Virus record (IMG/VR): IMGVR_UViG_3300030419_007196
Coordinates: 20,292 to 84,291 of that record
DNA: 64,000 nucleotides
From: a virus
Direction: 5' to 3' (one strand)
Numbering within the stretch: position 1 is the first letter of the stretch; each line of letters begins with the position of its first letter. Of this stretch, positions 20,287 through 40,379 are shown piece after piece. The position numbers and the translations under genes were made by a program. Under the pieces are notes generated by a model. It saw only the letters and a program-made list of their open reading frames with translations. It ran no database searches and had not been told where the DNA came from.

Positions 20287-20300
20287 TTATTAATCTCCTG

Positions 20301-29254: not shown

Positions 29255-29268
29255 ATCTTATAAAAGAA

Positions 29269-29303
29269 GATTCCCCGCTGGTCATAAAAACCAGCGGGGA
29301 ATC
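29269..29303 (-). terminator. intrinsic terminator after the major capsid gene
   Basis: A perfect 14-bp stem, GATTCCCCGCTGGT and ACCAGCGGGGAATC, with a 7-base loop, followed on the minus strand by TTCTTTTATAAG. It is 26 bases past the capsid stop. Confidence 0.85.
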
Positions 29304-29329
29304 CCTCCGTTAGGTTAAGTTAATTAAGA

Positions 29330-31216
29330 TTAACCAACCAAGTCATGACAAATGACCAGACCGTACATGTCTGAACGCACCATTCTCTTGGCGTAGCGGG
29401 TCATGACACCCTTACGAGGCACGAAGTCCTCTGGCCCAAAGATGGTAGGCGTAACCTGTAGCGGAACGTAAGGAGCATAAACATAGCCACTCTCTAAGAA
29501 GCTGCTACCCTTGCGACCAACGAGAATTACATTTCGCGGGAAGTAAGGATCGACATAAGCGTCGAACTTCTTGCTGATAGAGCCTACCTTGACAGCACCA
29601 ACGGAACCACGATCAGCGTCAGCGGTGACGCTAGCGCGGAAACCAGCAGTAAACTCAAGGATGTTAGCAACTTCTGGTGAGCAAACGATGAAGTTTGCAC
29701 CGCCACGAAGCGTCTTACGGTGGATCTGAGCGCTTACGTCGTTAATGGTCTCAATAAGCGTCTCGTACCACTCGCTAACAGTACCGGTGAAGTCAGGAGC
29801 AGCCGTAGTTGCACCAACTTCTTTACCAGTTACACGGTTCAAGAACTTGCCAGCATGGCGTGACCAGTGAAGCGTACTAGCAGTAGCACCCTTAACCAAG
29901 TCTTCCAAGATCTCGCGATCAATTTCTAGAGCAACATGCTCAGAAAGAATGCTGGTTAGCTCAACCTCTGCGTCAAGGTTGTGGTAAGCGTTGAGGTCTT
30001 GACCCAACTCTGGAGTCCACTTAGCCTTGAGCTTCTTGGTCTGCGCAGTAACGGCCAACGAATCAACCTTAATGTCAAGTTCACGAATAGTCGTGTTCTC
30101 GCCAGTTACGGAGTTGATCTTATTCTCGCCGTCGCCTGCACCTTCAAGACCGATTAGATCAGCCTCAACGGAACCAACAGCATTACCCTGCGAGTAATCA
30201 TCCTTACGAGCATACTGGAAGCCAAGACCGAAACCGGTGTCGGCGGTTGCGACCGAAACCATCGCTGCAGCGTTCGTAAACACGAAGTAAAGATCGTTAG
30301 TACCCTTTGGACGGGTCGTAAGTCTACGAACCTGTCGAGTATCAGCGGCGGTGCCACCGACCACACAAAGAGCGCCAACACCACCGGTTCTGGTGGCAGA
30401 ACCAATTTCGCTGGTGTTGTCGGAGAGATTGCCACTAATCGCAATCAAGTTGTTGAAGTCGGCGTCGGTGAGACCACCAGAACCATCATTCTTGATACCA
30501 TCAGCCAACTTGAGAACCTTGATGAAATGACCCTCGTTTAGATCTGGATCATAAGCAATACGGTTAGCAACGTCACGCTCAACAACCGTTGAAAGCGAGC
30601 CGGCCTCTAATAGAGAACGAAGCTGTGCAACGGTCTTTGCACCACGAAGAGAAGTCTCGGTGGTGTGGGCCAACTGAGTTGTTGAACCAGAGGCAGCAGA
30701 ACCGGTTGGGCTTGAGTATGATTGGTTAAGAGCATAAAAGCTAGTTTCACCACTCAGAGTGCCGGCGTGGTAGGTGTCATCCAAATCAACACCACTCGTG
30801 GCGATCTCTGAACCGACTGCGTTACCACCGTAAACTGACTTGCCTGCAACTGCGCCGGCGTGCTTCATAGCACTATCGGCATAGGTGAAGTCCAAGAAGA
30901 AAATGAGGCCCGAGGGCAAGCTCATCGGCTGAACACTAACGAGATCGTTGGCAATCAAGCCACCGAAAACGCGTCGAACAATTGGGAACGCTACGGCTGC
31001 GAAGCCTTCAACGTCACCACCGCTCATTACGGAAGCTTCACGGAGAAGTTCCTTGGCTTGGTTTTCTAATAGCCTAGCCATGCTATTTTTATGAATATCG
31101 CTGTTGAGTCCCTCTAAAAGACCGGTTTTTTCCCACTTTGTGAGTAGGGCTGCACCTTCCTTCTGGAGATCACGCTCAACGATGTTTTCTGTCAATTTTT
31201 CTACAATATTAGACAT
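29330..31216 (-). CDS. major capsid protein, T4 gp23 type
   Basis: The main head shell subunit, HK97 fold. The gp23 signature is FPIVRRVFGGLIANDLVSVQPM (about 77-98) with SGLIFFLDFTYADS, and the C-terminal half holds the conserved core (AEVELTSILSEHVALEIDRE, FVPRKGVMTRYAKRMVRSDM). At 628 aa it is longer than T4 gp23 (521), with a Gly/Ser/Thr-rich middle that may be an insertion domain. The N-terminal 65 residues are helical and likely removed by the prohead protease encoded at 34222-34827, as in T4. It follows the scaffold gene and is insulated by a strong terminator. Confidence 0.92.
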   Translation of the reverse strand: MSNIVEKLTENIVERDLQKEGAALLTKWEKTGLLEGLNSDIHKNSMARLLENQAKELLREASVMSGGDVEGFAAVAFPIVRRVFGGLIANDLVSVQPMSLPSGLIFFLDFTYADSAMKHAGAVAGKSVYGGNAVGSEIATSGVDLDDTYHAGTLSGETSFYALNQSYSSPTGSAASGSTTQLAHTTETSLRGAKTVAQLRSLLEAGSLSTVVERDVANRIAYDPDLNEGHFIKVLKLADGIKNDGSGGLTDADFNNLIAISGNLSDNTSEIGSATRTGGVGALCVVGGTAADTRQVRRLTTRPKGTNDLYFVFTNAAAMVSVATADTGFGLGFQYARKDDYSQGNAVGSVEADLIGLEGAGDGENKINSVTGENTTIRELDIKVDSLAVTAQTKKLKAKWTPELGQDLNAYHNLDAEVELTSILSEHVALEIDREILEDLVKGATASTLHWSRHAGKFLNRVTGKEVGATTAAPDFTGTVSEWYETLIETINDVSAQIHRKTLRGGANFIVCSPEVANILEFTAGFRASVTADADRGSVGAVKVGSISKKFDAYVDPYFPRNVILVGRKGSSFLESGYVYAPYVPLQVTPTIFGPEDFVPRKGVMTRYAKRMVRSDMYGLVICHDLVG

Positions 31217-31235: not shown

Positions 31236-32288
31236 TTATTTTTGAATGCCTGCCAAAGCTTTCATGCGATTGGCAAACGTTTCTTGTAGATTATTACTCT
31301 TTTGAGACTCTTGAGCCTTTAAGAGCATAGAAGTGTTTGTGCGACGACCTACTGCTTCGCTCAGAGATTTTGGACCAGTCTTTGGAGTCCCAACTGCGCT
31401 TTGAAGAGTTTCGTACACTACTTTTGCTTTTTCTACACTATCAGTACTCTGAATTGATTCGACAATTTCATTTTTTTGCCGCTCATTCAAGGAGCCATTA
31501 GACAGAACTTTATTAGTGTATAAAAGCTTTGCATTAATGAGATTCATCTCATCAAATTTGGTTTTAAGACTTTCAACCGCCTCGTATAAGGCTTCATTTT
31601 CGTTTGTAAGTCTTGCGTTCTCTTTTTGTTCTTTTTTAAGGGTGTTTTCAGCCTTTTGTAAATTGACCTCTAAAACTTTTTGAGTCTCTTTATGCTCTTT
31701 TGTCAACTCTAGCTCCATTTCAGCAATAGCACTTGCTAAAAGATCAAGAGCGGCCTCCTCATCTAACACCTTTGTTCCACGATTCATCCAACCGGCTGGC
31801 GTGGCTTCAAAATCTAATTTCATCTTTTCTTCAATAACTTCTTCTTCCACTTCTTTATTTTCTTCCTCGTTTAAAGAAGCTTGCTCGTTTTCTAATTCTT
31901 CTGATACGAGCTTGTCTATTTCCTCATCAGAAACAGCGACCTCATCAGAGACGTTTGATTCTGCAACAATTTTTTCTAAATCGATTTCAATAACTTGGTC
32001 TTCCTCTAGTTCAAAATTATTACTGTCAGACAAGTCGCCAAAGGCATAAGCTTTACCGTCATACTCATCTAATTGGGCCTCAACGATGGACTTGTCGTCT
32101 TTATCCTCTGGGGCTACAGTATCTTCACCGTAACTCTCACCTTTTACTTCATCTTGCTCTAAAAGCGTCTCAATTGTATCTTTAATTTGACCTGAATACT
32201 TGGCTAAAACCGCCTGTTCGGCGCTTTGAATGGCCGCCTCTCTGAGGGCTTTTGCATCAACTATTGCTTGCTCTAACATCGCTGACAT
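31236..32288 (-). CDS. prohead scaffold (core) protein, gp22 type
   Basis: 350 aa, very acidic and helical, as expected for the assembly core that is later degraded. Glu/Asp-rich stretches (about 45-150: VEAQLDEYDGKAYAF, DLEKIVAESNVSDE, NEEENKEVEEEVIEEK) lead into a coiled coil (about 185-250: LELTKEHKETQKVLEVNLQK). The C-terminus is basic, probably contacting capsid protein. It sits just before the capsid gene as in T4 (22 then 23) and carries the best late-type motif plus AAGGAG. Confidence 0.85.
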   Translation of the reverse strand: MSAMLEQAIVDAKALREAAIQSAEQAVLAKYSGQIKDTIETLLEQDEVKGESYGEDTVAPEDKDDKSIVEAQLDEYDGKAYAFGDLSDSNNFELEEDQVIEIDLEKIVAESNVSDEVAVSDEEIDKLVSEELENEQASLNEEENKEVEEEVIEEKMKLDFEATPAGWMNRGTKVLDEEAALDLLASAIAEMELELTKEHKETQKVLEVNLQKAENTLKKEQKENARLTNENEALYEAVESLKTKFDEMNLINAKLLYTNKVLSNGSLNERQKNEIVESIQSTDSVEKAKVVYETLQSAVGTPKTGPKSLSEAVGRRTNTSMLLKAQESQKSNNLQETFANRMKALAGIQK

Positions 32289-32345: not shown

Positions 32346-33164
32346 TTAAGAAGAAAGGGCTTGTGATAGACGGGAGGATTCGCTGTCAGTTAATTTTCTT
32401 GTAATGATAAAAAGGTCTGAAATATGCCCATTTAAAGGGAGTGAAGCACCGGTGCCTCTTGCTCCAATATAGGCTTGATCTGTTCTGTCAAAATCATAAT
32501 CAGCATCATTTGTTAAATCGCTGGCTCCAGCGGCAGTCAAGGATTCCCCATTTAAATGCTGGGTTAAAGCATCTGGAGTGGCTTCTGTATCGTGGGTAGT
32601 AACATAAACATATTCTGTATTAGAAGTAGTCGCTAAAGTGCTTAAGAAAAAGCTATCCTGTCCTCCACTTTTATCACCTATACCAGACCAAAATTTATCT
32701 CCACTGCTATCAATTGTTCCGTGGACTGCTCCACCATTAACTTCAGCATATCCTGAATCACCCAATTCCCAAACAATATTAGCCGCACCAAAAACACCCG
32801 TAATACAAAAGCGACTAACAACTGTAATTTTATCTGTGTTGGCTGGTATTAGCTGAATAGCATAGATTAAGTTCTCATTTGATTGAAATGAGTAGGCAGT
32901 TGTATTTAAAACTGAACTAAGCTCTGTGCTTGGAGGGTTTGAGCCAATAGTTGGCGATGTTCCCTCTACAACATCAATTGTTGAATTGCTCAAGTTTGAG
33001 CCAATTGTATTAGAAGTGCTCGTGGCATCAATCCAAGTAATAATATCACCACCACCAATAGCACGAATTAAAGAGCGTTTTGAACTGGCGCGATCAATGA
33101 GGCTTTGTTTACCAACAGAGCGACTTGATAAAGAGCCTTGTTTTCCACCAAAGCCGCTTCTCAT
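32346..33164 (-). CDS. LamG/concanavalin-like virion protein
   Basis: 272 aa. A basic N-terminal segment (RSGFGGKQGSLSSRSVGKQS, about 2-21) is followed by a probable LamG-type beta-sandwich (IITWIDATSTSNTIGSNLS ... FVYIGARG-like DQAYIGARGTGASLPLNGHI, SDLFIITRKLTDSESSRL). That closing pattern (house-keeping of the last strand and helix) is typical of concanavalin-like domains in phage structural proteins. It may bind sugars or act as a head decoration. It lies between S21/structural genes and the scaffold. Confidence 0.6.
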   Translation of the reverse strand: MRSGFGGKQGSLSSRSVGKQSLIDRASSKRSLIRAIGGGDIITWIDATSTSNTIGSNLSNSTIDVVEGTSPTIGSNPPSTELSSVLNTTAYSFQSNENLIYAIQLIPANTDKITVVSRFCITGVFGAANIVWELGDSGYAEVNGGAVHGTIDSSGDKFWSGIGDKSGGQDSFFLSTLATTSNTEYVYVTTHDTEATPDALTQHLNGESLTAAGASDLTNDADYDFDRTDQAYIGARGTGASLPLNGHISDLFIITRKLTDSESSRLSQALSS

Positions 33165-33581
33165 TTAACCAACCCCAAGAGAACCAGACCAGTTGTTTTC
33201 CAAGCTGCCAGTAGCAATACCGGTAAGGCCGGCCGCGACAGAAGCAGAGGTCTCGGCGGATTCGCCCATTAGATAAATTCTTGCAACTCTCCACTCTCCT
33301 GTGTAGGATTCGCCGTTATCCAAGGAGAAGTAGTTAGCGTTACCACCGGGCTTGGATCCGGTAATACCAAGCGATGAAAACCCAAACCTCAAGACAGAAT
33401 TGGTGCCAGTATTTGTGTTAACAACAGTAAAAAACCTAGTAACAGTTGGAAAATCAAATTGAAGTGGGCCGCTGGCGCTGTGAGGCACCCTAAAAGAAGC
33501 AGTCACAAAAGGTATGCCGCTCATTTGGTATTGGCCAACCGAGCTTAACCCCGCCCTATAATTAAAAAAAGTATCACTCAT
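33165..33581 (-). CDS. small virion structural protein, unknown (138 aa)
   Basis: Beta-rich protein (FRVPHSASGPLQFDFPTVTRFF, SVLRFGFSSLGITGS, ESYTGEWRVARIYLMGES) with a Gly/Ser-rich C-terminus. No family recognised. The stop overlaps nothing upstream; the start overlaps the bS21 stop by four bases, and the stop abuts the LamG protein start. It probably decorates or completes the capsid, by neighbours only. Confidence 0.58.
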   Translation of the reverse strand: MSDTFFNYRAGLSSVGQYQMSGIPFVTASFRVPHSASGPLQFDFPTVTRFFTVVNTNTGTNSVLRFGFSSLGITGSKPGGNANYFSLDNGESYTGEWRVARIYLMGESAETSASVAAGLTGIATGSLENNWSGSLGVG

Positions 33582-33790
33582 CGTTTATTCTGCTCCCGTT
33601 TTAATTTTTCTAAAACTTTTTCTCTTTTCATTTTCTCTTTTCTCTTCTTCACAGATGGTTTTATGTAATATCTTCTGTTCAGAACTTCTTTCACTATTCC
33701 TGCGTTTTTCACTTTTCTGTTAAATCTCTTTATAAGCGATTCGGCTGATTCGTTTCTGCGAGCTTTAACCTGTACATTACAACTATACAT
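33578..33790 (-). CDS. rpsU: ribosomal protein bS21 homologue
   Basis: 70 aa, the size of bacterial bS21 (about 70). The conserved pattern is clear: V-KARRNESAESLIKRFNRKV, KNAGIVKEVLNRRYYIKPS, then a Lys/Arg-rich C-terminal helix (VKKRKEKMKREKVLEKLKRE). bS21 sits near the 3' end of 16S rRNA and helps initiation. Phage-encoded bS21 is known from aquatic phages. It lies inside the late head operon and is coupled to the next gene by a 4-base overlap, so it is probably made late. It could steer host ribosomes to phage messages, which is inference. Confidence 0.9.
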   Translation of the reverse strand: MYSCNVQVKARRNESAESLIKRFNRKVKNAGIVKEVLNRRYYIKPSVKKRKEKMKREKVLEKLKREQNKR

Positions 33791-33800
33791 ATTTTGCCTC

Positions 33801-34241
33801 TTATTTAATTAGATGCTTCCAGCTATTCATGCCGGGAATAGAAGAAATATCTACACCGGGATCGTTTGGATTGACGCCGGTGAGCGTGCCCGCACCTTTT
33901 GTTTCTGATTCAGGTGCAGGGGTTGTTCCCTCAAATAAGTCCACGCCCCCAAAATTGTTTTTAAGAATTTCAGTCATTTTTTTCTTATTTTCAGAAAAAG
34001 CCTTTCTTTCTTTAGGTTGTTTCTTTTGCTTAGATGCCCTTTCCATAACCCTTTCTGTCACAACATTATGTTTCGGCGTATTGGTTATAGTGGGCTGTTT
34101 TGCCTCTAGCAAATTAGCCTTTACAAAGCCGGCAGCTATTTCTGAAACTAAATTGCTAATTATGCCCTCTTCAAAGAGAACCTCTTTAACACACTCTTTT
34201 ACGAGATTTTTTAGATCTTTTTTATTTGTTAACGATTTCAT
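33801..34241 (-). CDS. hypothetical head-region protein (146 aa)
   Basis: Overlaps the prohead protease gene by 20 bases. The N-terminal half is helical (DLKNLVKECVKEVLFEEGII, SNLVSEIAAGFVKANLLEA), the middle is basic (RASKQKKQPKERKAF), and the C-terminus is Pro/Gly-rich (GVNPNDPGVDISSIPGMNSW). By position it may be a prohead core component comparable to T4 gp67/gp68, but there is no sequence evidence for that. Confidence 0.55.
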   Translation of the reverse strand: MKSLTNKKDLKNLVKECVKEVLFEEGIISNLVSEIAAGFVKANLLEAKQPTITNTPKHNVVTERVMERASKQKKQPKERKAFSENKKKMTEILKNNFGGVDLFEGTTPAPESETKGAGTLTGVNPNDPGVDISSIPGMNSWKHLIK

Positions 34242-34827
34242 TAATCAACCTATTAATCCTATCTTTTTTAGTGAAAATTTTATTTTCGGGAATAGTATTT
34301 TCTGTTACTCTCATGAATGCGCCGGGAGTGGATGGGTCGCTGACTATATCAAAACAAATTAGTTGAAAGTCGTCTTGCACAATTGTCTCTCCAGATTGTT
34401 CCTTTACGGACCCAAGGCCCCTTGAGGAAATTCCAAGTTGGGCGCCACCGTCCACCAAAGATCTAAGTATGTTACCAGATGGAGTGTCCAAGACTTTTAA
34501 TTTGCCCATTACAGTTTTTCCATCCATCCAAACATCTATAATCATGTGAGACACATTATTTAAATTAATAATTGAAGACTCTGGATGGTCCAACTCACCA
34601 AGCGCTCTATTATCTTTTACTATGGTTTTATAATTTTCGACTTCTCTCTTTAAAATTTTAGTTGGATAAACTCTAAAGTTGCCATTTTTACGATCTCCCT
34701 CTTGAATTTTTCCAGTTAAGATCATGCCACCTTCTTTGACAAACTTTTTTTCTTCCTCGGTTAACAAATCTTGGCAGACCCCGCCCTCACAGAGTTCATA
34801 ATATTCTCTAAGAAGATTCTTATTCAT
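34222..34827 (-). CDS. prohead core protease, gp21 type
   Basis: Serine protease that matures the head by cutting scaffold and capsid N-termini. Catalytic candidates are H81 in ALGELDHPESS and S134/S135 in LGISSRGLGSV, the two signature blocks of this family, separated by MIIDVWMDGKTVMGKLKVLD. Length is 201 aa against 212 in T4. It lies between portal and scaffold genes as in T4 and is joined to the 82-residue gene by a one-base overlap. Confidence 0.88.
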   Translation of the reverse strand: MNKNLLREYYELCEGGVCQDLLTEEEKKFVKEGGMILTGKIQEGDRKNGNFRVYPTKILKREVENYKTIVKDNRALGELDHPESSIINLNNVSHMIIDVWMDGKTVMGKLKVLDTPSGNILRSLVDGGAQLGISSRGLGSVKEQSGETIVQDDFQLICFDIVSDPSTPGAFMRVTENTIPENKIFTKKDRINRLINEIVNK

Positions 34828-36021: not shown

Positions 36022-36829
36022 TTTTAATTTCCTCTTTTAAGGATTGCATACTCAAAAGTTTCTTTAAAATTTCTTCACTAATATATTGCCCCTTAAAAGA
36101 AGCTATCTCTTTCTTTACTTCTTCTAAAGCGTTTCTCATACCTTCGGCATCCGCCTCAGCAATATAGCTATTGATTGTTTCTTTTACCTCATTCAATTCT
36201 TCGTTTATATAACTCTTAAGCTCAAGGCCGCCGTCTCTAACTGATTCGATATATAATTTTAAAAGAGTTTTTTGCCCTTCGTTTAAATTAGTATATTTTT
36301 TATTGAACTTGTTAGTGAAAATTTTATAAACTGCCTTGCTAACTTTCTCCATGTTCTCTGTTACGGCTGGTTTACTATCATTAACAATTGATTGTATTAA
36401 ATTGTTCTCAAGAATAACCCTAGATTTTATTGGCGTTTTTTCATTAAAAATTTGGTAAATTGTAGCTAAATTTTTATAATTTGGCACAAAATTTTCAAAT
36501 GAATGTTTTCCAATTAGTTTATTGATTGCTCCAATTAGTTTTGTTTGTTCGTTAAAAATATCTTTATTATTTAATTTTTCTCTGGTTTTTAACGCCTCGG
36601 AAATAATTTTTGAAATTATTTCTTTATTATATCCCTGAAGGTTTTCGAATTCTTTGTACAACTTAAGCTCTTCTGCTAGAATTTTTCCTTTTGAAAAATA
36701 TTCTTTCAAAACCTTTACAATTGTTTCTTGTAATTCCTGCCTATTGTTCAACGAACTCTTTGTAAGCTCTGATATTAATACTTCGTAAAGAAAAGCGGTA
36801 TTTCTTTTCTTATTATGATTTAGTTTCAT
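36014..36829 (-). CDS. hypothetical helical protein next to the portal (271 aa)
   Basis: Almost entirely helical and Lys/Glu-rich (QETIVKVLKEYFSKGKILAE, LKLYIESVRDGGLELKSYIN, RNALEEVKKEIASFKGQYIS). No motif recognised. It overlaps the portal stop by 17 bases. A prohead core or internal head protein is a reasonable guess from charge and position. Confidence 0.58.
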   Translation of the reverse strand: MKLNHNKKRNTAFLYEVLISELTKSSLNNRQELQETIVKVLKEYFSKGKILAEELKLYKEFENLQGYNKEIISKIISEALKTREKLNNKDIFNEQTKLIGAINKLIGKHSFENFVPNYKNLATIYQIFNEKTPIKSRVILENNLIQSIVNDSKPAVTENMEKVSKAVYKIFTNKFNKKYTNLNEGQKTLLKLYIESVRDGGLELKSYINEELNEVKETINSYIAEADAEGMRNALEEVKKEIASFKGQYISEEILKKLLSMQSLKEEIKNG

Positions 36830-38801
36830 CTTTTTTCTTCTCCAGTGAGTTAATAAGGTTGTCGATATCTTGTGAAGCTAACAACACCTTTCTTTCTATT
36901 TCGTCATTATAATTAGACTCGTTTACTACGCCTTTCGCTAATTTGTTTAATTCGTGGTATCCTTTGTGAGATTTGCGAGTGCCGCCCTGTTCCACGCCGG
37001 ATAAAGACAGGTAATTTTTCTTTCTAGCTCCCATGTCGCGCTTATCTGTTGTAACTGGCATATACCACTTATCTTTTGATTTGTTTGTGGTGGTTTTGCC
37101 GTCAGATGTTTTTGTTACTTTATACCACTCATCATCTCTTTTTCCTGCGCCCGGTTCAGCGCCGGGGGTAACTAATAGCCCGCCCTCCTCTTCTGGGGCA
37201 GCAGGTGGTGTGGCAGGTTCAGCCTCTGCTGGTGCTGGGGTTTCTGCGGCTGGTTCGCCTATGGCTTCGGCTTCGGCCCCTGTCTCTGTTGGGCCTCCCA
37301 GACCAAAGCCGCCACCGAAAGCGCCGCCGGCGTCTTCGACAGTTGCTTGAGCGATTTTACCCATGGCAGCTTCTAATTTTTTATCATAGAACTTTTCTCT
37401 CTGGTTTCTAATAAATTCTTCTTCGCTAATACCAAAAATGTTTTCAGATATCCAGCGAGCGCTGAAAACACTTTGTGTTGCTTGGTTTGCAATTTCAAAC
37501 TTTACTCTCATATTTTCCATCTCTTGCAATTGCGCAATTTTGGAAGGGTTTGTTAGACCAAGGGTAAAGGAGAGCAGGTCTTCACCTCTATATCCAAGCG
37601 TATAGAGATGGACAATACCAATTTTTTCTAGCTCGCTGACTATAGATCTTTGAATTCTTTGAATTGTTCTAGCAAAACGAATGTCTTTTTGTGCCAGAGT
37701 GGTTTTGTCCTCTGTTGCTCCAGCGGCCGAGTCTCTAATAACGTAAGACGGCGGCACTTTAATCGCGGACAACATTTTATCTCTGAGATATTTTACGTCT
37801 TCGATGTCATTAGTTCTTGCCTGACCGCCTACGTTTTCAATTTTTGTTCCAGAAGCACCACCACGAACCGGAATATAGTAATCCTCTTCGATGGAAGCTG
37901 GATTGTAGCGCAAGTCAACGCGGCCGGAATTAGAATCCACTACTTGATGGCGCTTCATTTGTGTCATAACCTTTTGCATGAACTGTTCGACATCTTCTGG
38001 TGGCACACCACCGACATCGACATAAAAGGCCCTTCGATCAGGTGCTCGGACAATACGATATGCCATCATGGCATCTTCCATCATGGTAAGCTGACGCCAG
38101 ATGCGGCGGGCAGAATCTAATACTGAGGTCCCATATGGTGCAAATTTATCATTTCCCAAAATACGAAAGTGGCCGACTTGCCAGTTTTCAAACGTCATGC
38201 CGGCAGAATTCCATTGATATTGAATATAGTTTGGATTTGTTTTATCTTCACCCTCCAATCTCTCAATTTCTTGAGGTGGTAAGCCAATAACAGATTTAAC
38301 ACCTAATTCATCGTCGATATCCAAATAAACAAAGTAGTCACCATACTTGCACATACTTCTTGCGTAACCATATAAATTGAACTCAAGATTTAAAACCTCA
38401 AAATAGAGGGTGTTTAGTATTTCTTTAATCTCTTGATTGTTACATCTAATTTTTAATGGTTTTTCAAATCCATCGTGATAGGTAATCTCATCGGCATAAA
38501 TATCAAGAGACGAGGCCAGTTCTGGAGTGTATTCCATCTGATCGAAATCCGCGTATCTCTCTGATCTACTAATATTTTTAACCACATCAGACATCATTGT
38601 GTCGTATGGATTGTAAGATTTTTTCTTAAAATCTTGCCCACTTGCAGTTCTAAAAGTACTTGCGTATTTGTCTAAACGCTTTCTTCGATCTTTTCGTACA
38701 TTTTGTTTTCTGTAGTTTATGATAGGTCCGGAAAACAGACGCGTTAGCCTCTTAAAAAGTTCCGAACTGTTATTTTTTGGATTTCTTGAATTATCAGCCA
38801 T
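36813..38801 (-). CDS. portal protein, gp20 type
   Basis: Dodecameric portal that nucleates the head and passes DNA. Family stretches are SLDIYADEITYHDGFEKPLK (about 91-110), FAPYGTSVLDSARRIWRQLT, MMEDAMMAYRIVRAPDRRAF and VGGVPPEDVEQFMQKVMTQM. At 662 aa it exceeds T4 gp20 (524). A GC-rich, Ala/Pro/Glu/Gly low-complexity stretch encoded at about 37150-37345 inserts a flexible linker before the C-terminus. The start is four bases after the terminase stop. Confidence 0.9.
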   Translation of the reverse strand: MADNSRNPKNNSSELFKRLTRLFSGPIINYRKQNVRKDRRKRLDKYASTFRTASGQDFKKKSYNPYDTMMSDVVKNISRSERYADFDQMEYTPELASSLDIYADEITYHDGFEKPLKIRCNNQEIKEILNTLYFEVLNLEFNLYGYARSMCKYGDYFVYLDIDDELGVKSVIGLPPQEIERLEGEDKTNPNYIQYQWNSAGMTFENWQVGHFRILGNDKFAPYGTSVLDSARRIWRQLTMMEDAMMAYRIVRAPDRRAFYVDVGGVPPEDVEQFMQKVMTQMKRHQVVDSNSGRVDLRYNPASIEEDYYIPVRGGASGTKIENVGGQARTNDIEDVKYLRDKMLSAIKVPPSYVIRDSAAGATEDKTTLAQKDIRFARTIQRIQRSIVSELEKIGIVHLYTLGYRGEDLLSFTLGLTNPSKIAQLQEMENMRVKFEIANQATQSVFSARWISENIFGISEEEFIRNQREKFYDKKLEAAMGKIAQATVEDAGGAFGGGFGLGGPTETGAEAEAIGEPAAETPAPAEAEPATPPAAPEEEGGLLVTPGAEPGAGKRDDEWYKVTKTSDGKTTTNKSKDKWYMPVTTDKRDMGARKKNYLSLSGVEQGGTRKSHKGYHELNKLAKGVVNESNYNDEIERKVLLASQDIDNLINSLEKKKDETKS

Positions 38802-38804
38802 CTT

Positions 38805-40379
38805 TTATCCTATGAAAAACGGTAAATTTATTACTTTTTCGTTGTTATTTTTAGTAATTACTTTCTGCTCGTGTTTTTTCATCCCCCTAACTGAAGTGTC
38901 CAACACAGATCTCTTTGTCGAGAAAGAAGCTAACATCGCTTGACTATAATTAGCTTCTCTCGTATTTGCTACCAACGCGGTGTCTCTGATCCAACAAGAA
39001 ATAGCAGCAGACATAACTAGATCGTCGTTATAACTTCTCATCGCCTGAGCCTTACCATTATGCCAAACAAATGTTTTTAATTCGTTGGCCAATCTAATTG
39101 AATTAATTTTAATAACCTTGTTACGAATAAACTCTTCCAATTTTGCGACAACTAAAGGTCTTGTCTTCATAGTTGTTGAAAAGCCACAAACAACTCCAGC
39201 CTGTTCCTCTGCCATAAACCTATCAACCTGCTCGTGACTAGATTTTCTACTCCAATAAAGGTTTGGGTGCTTCATCTCTTGAAGTTTAGAAATGACCGAC
39301 ATGCCAATAGAATTATTCTCAACTACAGTTAGACACATACCATACTGTTTTGAGACATCAAAAATTAAATTAGCAAAAGTATCTAATGGCATTTTACCAC
39401 GATATTCAGCGACCTGCTCAACTGTCTTTGTGCTAAAGACCTGAATTGCTGAATGGTCTGCACCGTCGCCTCGGGCCGGGTCGGCCACCAAAAAATACGA
39501 ACCGTCATTTTGAAACGACTCCCAGATCCAAAGATTCCTATCATAGCCAGTCTTATATTTTGGCTCCCTACAGTTTTCAAAAACTCTTTCTAAGTCTTCC
39601 CCCTCAATAAGGGTCGCACCGGACATATTAAAATTGCAAAGTAACTCCTGAGCAATCTCAGTCTTTTTCATGTTTTTGGTTTCTTTTTCAAACCAAACAT
39701 TATCTCTATCTGGGTGGACATCCCACGGGAGTCTCATGGGAACAAAGTCATTTAATTCTTGTTCTGCCTCTGTATACAACTTGTGAAACATGTTTCCCAC
39801 GCCTCTTGGTGTTGAAAGAATAATACAATTACCGCCAGTAGAAAGTGTTGGGTACAAACCGGCCCACAAATCGTCCAAGCCCTCAATAATTGCAGCCTCA
39901 TCAATAACCAAAAGAGACAAAGCCTCGGAACGGCCAGCGTCACCGGACGTAGAAATTGCCTTAACTTGCGATCCATTATCTAACTGGAAAGAGTTCCTGT
40001 TGTTAATAACAATTTTAGATATCATCATCCATTCCGGTAGGGACTTCATGGCTAATTTTACTTTCTTAACTAAGTTACCGGCGGTATCCAGCTTAGTTGC
40101 CATGACAACCACATTTTTGTTTCTGTGAAACAAAAGAAGCCATGTGATATACGCGGCACTAGTAGTAGAGAGACCAAGTTGCCTCGCCTTTAAAATAATA
40201 TTAAAACGATTCGAACTAAAAGATTCCACACAGTCCTTCTGGAAGGGATACAGACTAAAAGGAATTAATCCCTTGAGCGGATGTGCAACTTTTACATAAT
40301 TGTTAATAAAATAAACAGGATCTCTGCCACATTTAAGCAGTTCTTTCTTTAACTGAGATTTTGTAAGTTTGTAACCCAT
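38805..40379 (-). CDS. terL: terminase large subunit, gp17 type
   Basis: Packaging motor ATPase and nuclease. Walker A-like KARQLGLST (64-72), Walker B LSLLVIDEAA (D159, E160), coupling stretch CIILSTPRG, nuclease acidic sites FLVADPARGDGADHS (D299, D307), TVVENNSIG and SYNDDLVMSA. Size 524 aa against 610 in T4. The ATG shares a base with the stop of the preceding gene (TAATG), so they are coupled. Confidence 0.93.
   Translation of the reverse strand: MGYKLTKSQLKKELLKCGRDPVYFINNYVKVAHPLKGLIPFSLYPFQKDCVESFSSNRFNIILKARQLGLSTTSAAYITWLLLFHRNKNVVVMATKLDTAGNLVKKVKLAMKSLPEWMMISKIVINNRNSFQLDNGSQVKAISTSGDAGRSEALSLLVIDEAAIIEGLDDLWAGLYPTLSTGGNCIILSTPRGVGNMFHKLYTEAEQELNDFVPMRLPWDVHPDRDNVWFEKETKNMKKTEIAQELLCNFNMSGATLIEGEDLERVFENCREPKYKTGYDRNLWIWESFQNDGSYFLVADPARGDGADHSAIQVFSTKTVEQVAEYRGKMPLDTFANLIFDVSKQYGMCLTVVENNSIGMSVISKLQEMKHPNLYWSRKSSHEQVDRFMAEEQAGVVCGFSTTMKTRPLVVAKLEEFIRNKVIKINSIRLANELKTFVWHNGKAQAMRSYNDDLVMSAAISCWIRDTALVANTREANYSQAMLASFSTKRSVLDTSVRGMKKHEQKVITKNNNEKVINLPFFIG

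Follow-up and report, generated by a model that had tools for sequence, protein, structure and literature searches.

Why does a virus of bacteria carry a ribosomal protein gene within its set of head-assembly genes, and what might the protein do there? We addressed this question in a 64,000-nucleotide stretch of viral DNA (positions 20,292 to 84,291 of IMG/VR record IMGVR_UViG_3300030419_007196), referred to here as the window. The open reading frame in question (33578-33790, minus strand) starts with ATG and encodes a 70-amino-acid phage bS21, a homologue of the rpsU product, preceded by a ribosome-binding site of its own (aagagg, SD dG -5.8). A preliminary description of this DNA had called it a full-length bS21 homologue, and family searches confirm this. 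The protein matches Pfam PF01165 Ribosomal_S21 (E=1.4e-14, 53.9 bits with a cut-off of 27, profile positions 1-52 of 55), NCBIfam TIGR00030 'S21p' (E=8.3e-13, 48 bits with a cut-off of 28.95) and PHROGs phrog_21469 'ribosomal protein S21' (E=1.4e-8). Furthermore, 28 distinct solved PDB sequences labelled bS21 or S21 match it in a sequence search at E<=0.001. Judged by these matches, a chance explanation of the family assignment is ruled out. This bS21 is the sole PF01165 match of the 124,864-base IMG/VR record that contains the window.

The gene lies in a T4-like head operon with the order terminase, portal, prohead protease, 146-aa protein, bS21, 138-aa protein, lectin-fold protein, scaffold and major capsid protein, all encoded on the minus strand. 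Four of the genes around bS21 have family matches: the large terminase (38805-40379; Pfam Terminase_6N, E=3.5e-8; phrog_2, E=8.9e-46), the T4 gp20-like portal (36813-38801; Pfam PF07230, E=2.7e-73), the T4 gp21-like prohead core protease (34222-34827; Peptidase_S77, Pfam E=6e-29; phrog_207, head maturation protease) and the major capsid protein, Gp23 (29330-31216; Pfam PF07068, E=2.5e-75). The prohead scaffold (31236-32288) has no strong Pfam or PHROG match and is assigned by its position directly before the capsid gene; it is conserved and carries cleavage motifs. In the order of transcription, the spacers upstream of bS21 are -1 nt between an 82-aa gene and the protease, -20 nt between the protease and the 146-aa gene (referred to here as gapA; 33801-34241) and +10 nt between gapA and bS21. 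Downstream, the bS21 stop overlaps the 138-aa gene (dnA; 33165-33581) by 4 nt in an ATGA, no spacer separates dnA from the lectin-fold gene (32346-33164), and 57 and 19 nt precede the scaffold and capsid genes. Just after the capsid gene lies an intrinsic terminator-like hairpin (29267-29305, minus strand) with a 17-pair stem, a T-rich tail and a folding z-score of -6.8. A hairpin of dG<=-12 kcal/mol (lowest-energy 45-nt fold at a distance of up to 120 nt from the stop) follows the capsid gene in all 98 capsid loci tested, with a mean dG of -24.4 there compared to -12.9 inside the capsid gene. The tight spacers and the terminator-like hairpin together indicate that bS21 belongs to a compact unit terminating behind the capsid gene. 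Since every one of the 123 genes called in the record (approximately 124 kb) is on the minus strand, strand agreement alone is no evidence of such a unit; the gene caller missed bS21 and a second gene, h100, and both are absent from the 123.

The preliminary description had placed bS21 between the prohead protease and LamG-type genes. Its head context stands, as the Gp23, Portal_T4 and Peptidase_S77 matches demonstrate; the protease is separated from bS21 by gapA, however, and the gene described as LamG-type (32346-33164) has no Pfam or PHROG match. A model of its product (mean pLDDT 58, low confidence) matches PDB beta-sandwich domains with a best E of about 2e-7, and we take their fold class to be of the concanavalin/LamG kind, so that the label is plausible at the level of fold only. 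The model of the beta-rich dnA product has a mean pLDDT of 77; a fold search of the PDB at E<=0.001 gave no hit for it.

We asked whether relatives keep bS21 in this position. Since bS21 itself as a bait retrieved one IMG/VR record only, we used the protease and the capsid protein as baits and took the best 80 loci for each from IMG/VR, a sample biased toward close relatives. Profiles made from window proteins were run on the 163 sequences, in many cases short contigs. Among these best 80 loci per bait, the bS21 profile matched 90 of the 163 sequences, gapA was found in 93 and the scaffold in 116. Dropping four loci that are repeats or near-identical to the window (L001, L002, L003 and L085) reduced the 90 bS21 loci to 86 records. 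Within the same sample, bS21 is present in 53 of the 55 distinct records that contain both protease and capsid genes, and in every record having all three (53/53) it lies between the other two on the same strand. Coupling of bS21 to virion genes, as first described, is thus borne out by this arrangement and by the window's own spacers. With repeats included, bS21 and protease strands agree in 87 of 87 loci (83 distinct records), and in 82 of 87 no more than 30 nt lie between the end of gapA and the start of bS21. Thirteen protease loci have no bS21. In 11 of them the sequence stops 0 to 1,921 nt past the protease gene, so that a more distant bS21 could be cut off; the true absences are L067 and L082, each with approximately 8 kb of sequence, and these are the two exceptions among the 55 records. 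The LamG-like gene is clade-specific, occurring in only 13 of the 86 bS21-bearing records, and is therefore no defining neighbour of bS21. A subgroup of relatives (e.g., L062, L064, L086, L102, L106 and L109) has dnA before bS21, the reverse of the window order, and in this subgroup the bS21 N-terminus is extended, mostly by basic residues.

The gene is also constrained. Median pairwise dN/dS is 0.058 for bS21 (17 usable of 34 pairs), 0.046 for the protease (34 pairs) and 0.118 for gapA (33 pairs); purifying selection acts on bS21 as it does on the protease. Distances among bS21 proteins follow those among proteases (Mantel r=0.48, reached by 0 of 2000 permutations) and those among gapA proteins (r=0.62), with the former value below the 0.69 obtained for gapA. 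These correlations suggest that bS21 and the head module have long been inherited together. Our data thus point to a real, conserved and functionally plausible gene, of a kind that, like the hypothesis attached to it, is already published.

According to Chen et al. 2022 (PMC9723584), bS21 lies near TerL, portal, protease and MCP genes in 47 phage genomes, and the protease is within ten genes of bS21 in 310 of 900 published bS21 phages. The same source reports metatranscriptomes in which bS21 of lake phages is transcribed in situ with structural genes, and proposes late-stage ribosome substitution. The timing hypothesis, which the preliminary description put forward as testable, was therefore anticipated, both in its placement argument and in late substitution, and with metatranscriptomic data. 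The freshwater Bacteroidetes phages of that study share a single bS21 near TerL, portal, prohead protease and MCP, and the window bS21 likewise lies a few genes from each of these. In their clades a-e, however, bS21 is on the strand opposite to the structural genes, whereas the window phage has it on the strand of those genes, with coupled spacers. Furthermore, those phages are described with SD-poor Bacteroidetes hosts while the genes of the window phage are SD-rich: an SD of dG<=-5 kcal/mol precedes 64% of the 123 called genes, and the figure for 337 internal ATGs is 15%. This speaks against a host from the Bacteroidia.

Isolated phages provide three further comparisons. Pelagibacter phage HTVC008M is a marine T4-like phage that also carries a bS21, but its bS21 is located at 91.2 kb beside CobS, Hsp20 and polymerase clamp genes, approximately 16 kb from the capsid gene and not in the head module. 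The Microcystis phage Mel-JY01 (PP395634) has the same order as the window: TerL, a portal-like gene, three genes, prohead protease, a 154-aa gene, an annotated RpsU (75 aa), two genes, a scaffold-like gene and capsid. Its host is cyanobacterial, its bS21 is 35% identical to that of the window, and it has no match to the gapA, dnA or LamG profiles. Flavobacterium phage vB_FspM_immuto is among the closest isolates (TerL 42%, capsid 47%, protease 46%) and has the same head-gene order; bS21 was not found in its head module. What is added here to the published picture is the same-strand, coupled bS21 of SD-using T4-like phages, together with a sequence test against the possibility that the protein is packaged, described below.

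We consider it probable that a T4-like, SD-using phage has here a resident bS21 in its head operon, made with the head proteins and sustaining initiation on SD-bearing messages generally. The gene would share a transcript with the genes from protease to capsid and be translationally coupled to them, and bS21 would be produced when head proteins are. At the 16S 3' end of 30S subunits the phage protein may then replace or supplement the bS21 of the host, and may sustain initiation on the SD-bearing messages of the phage as a whole, not on virion messages in particular. Late production here is suggested by the operon position and by the published lake phages. Several observations speak against this explanation. 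The T4 late promoter TATAAATA is not enriched (5 occurrences in the window compared to 5.05 expected, none of them in the head region), and the match of a gp55-like open reading frame (L164:10057-10755) is weak (E=0.0063). In addition, Chen et al. 2022 (PMC9723584) state that the bS21 region is not transcribed as a single operon in their phages, and the Mantel r of bS21 is below that of gapA. Mizuno et al. 2019 (PMC6375957) report that HTVC008M bS21 enters E. coli ribosomes and that ribosomes carrying it are only about 5% active in vitro. As a late sigma factor, the gp55-like candidate was set aside, its match being too weak to use. The head region has fewer sigma-70-like sites than shuffled sequence. 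A search for the sliding clamp phrog_223 gave no match, but neither did its control search, so that the negative carries no weight. If phage bS21 acts on ribosomes during head-protein synthesis, it would provide a natural example of ribosome remodelling by a virus through the swap of one exchangeable protein. We found no infection-time ribosome study of a bS21 phage in the open-licence literature; the many same-strand, coupled relatives and an isolate with the same gene order, Mel-JY01, offer a route to a direct test.

A neighbouring explanation, possible although we hold it doubtful, is that phage bS21 substitutes for host bS21 that is lost or degraded in infection and so keeps initiation alive without message selectivity. 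The loose binding and exchangeability of bS21 (Mizuno et al. 2019, PMC6375957) fit such a role, as does the change in message choice on bS21 loss in Flavobacterium (PMC9976891). However, the published accounts available to us contain no evidence of host bS21 loss in any infection, and by sequence this substitution is hard to tell from the general support of SD-message initiation that we favour.

A stronger version of the ribosome hypothesis holds that phage bS21 steers ribosomes specifically to virion messages, at the expense of the host's messages and the phage's remaining ones. The operon position of bS21 is in keeping with this, and selection of late phage messages by phage bS21 has been proposed in print (Chen et al. 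2022, PMC9723584). If such a bias, also suggested in the preliminary description, worked through SD pairing, virion genes might differ from others in SD strength. We found no difference between 11 head genes and 100 other called genes (mean dG -6.1 and -5.7, respectively; p=0.69), nor for the virion block of 23 genes (p=0.67). These comparisons, which concern the SD signal only, give the suggested bias no support, and we regard specific steering as unlikely.

A further reading begins from the C-terminal tail. A Tyr54-type aromatic residue stacks on the anti-SD in Flavobacterium (PMC9723584; PMC9976891), and an aromatic at the Tyr54 position is reported for all 61 bS21s of the Chen phages. The window bS21, in contrast, has no F, Y, W or H beyond Y42, and thus the stacking residue is missing. 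A C-tail without an aromatic is found in 33 of 72 distinct relatives by a rough motif search that misplaces the tail in some rows. It is conceivable, though we give it little credence, that in these SD-rich T4-like phages bS21 is a fixed head-operon gene whose dose is tied to capsid synthesis and which, without the stacking aromatic, keeps the anti-SD open on late ribosomes and favours SD-bearing phage messages, a mode distinct from the anti-SD occlusion of Bacteroidia phages.

We also considered whether bS21 acts outside the infection in which it is made, as a virion component: a basic internal protein of the prohead core that is injected with the DNA and is active from the start of the next infection. 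The protein is small and very basic (calculated pI 10.8), and its gene lies among prohead-core genes. T4-type head proteases cleave after [LI]xE. The motif [LI]xE[AGS] is present in 96% of gapA proteins (76 sequences), 93% of proteases, 99% of the proteins designated h271 and 100% of both scaffold and capsid proteins, each above shuffles; in gapA the mean count is 1.84 compared to 0.42 in shuffled sequences. By the same measure bS21 shows no excess, with the motif in 6% of 72 sequences and a mean count of 0.06 compared to 0.07 in shuffles. This pattern makes gapA a probable prohead-core protein, as yet unnamed, that the head protease processes, and suggests that bS21 is not processed. The missing motif argues against bS21 as a T4-type internal virion protein; it is not decisive, since packaging is possible without cleavage. 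Encapsidation is named as a possibility by Chen et al. 2022 (PMC9723584), and we found no virion-proteome report on phage bS21 in the open-licence literature, which is weak evidence. On balance, we judge it improbable that bS21 is carried in the virion. Within gapA, the motifs resembling head-protease cleavage sites are LLEA and LFEG, and [LIVM]FEG is found in 63 of 74 relatives.

The origin of the gene bears on the last alternative. Comparison with host rpsU sequences, which was expected to reveal a donor lineage, does not work for this gene. A scan of bacterial genomes, with phage-like peptide patterns used to pre-filter the cellular sample, yielded no cellular sequence close to bS21. The best non-phage matches have 30-52% identity, for the most part along short segments, and are scattered over Planctomycetes, Omnitrophota, Amoebophilaceae, Gemmatimonadota and others. 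In a tree of 123 sequences (47 cellular, 63 columns), the split of phage sequences has a support of 0.30 with four sequences misplaced, including HTVC008M and Mel-JY01, and no donor was identified from these scattered matches and this weakly supported tree. Since bS21 covaries with the head module and its nearest cellular sequences are distant and scattered, the gene has the look of an old resident. Phages often pick up host genes, but that bS21 was captured recently from the current host and has no function in infection is very hard to believe, given its near-constant placement among the best 80 loci per bait, the purifying selection, distances that follow the head module and the lack of a close cellular sequence.

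The best match overall, L172 (PBOB01000007.1), was binned in an Acidiferrobacteraceae metagenome-assembled genome and is a phage contig with gapA, bS21, dnA and scaffold, a relative of the window phage; this is a weak hint of the host or a binning error. Other translation genes lie outside the window. A tmRNA (L163:14945-15303, equivalent to G000:C1:15236-15594; Rfam RF00023, E=1.9e-46) encodes the tag ANDNVAFDYALAA, and six tRNAs are located near it. Together, bS21, the tmRNA and the tRNAs form a small translation kit of this phage; some Streptomyces phages also have annotated tmRNA genes.
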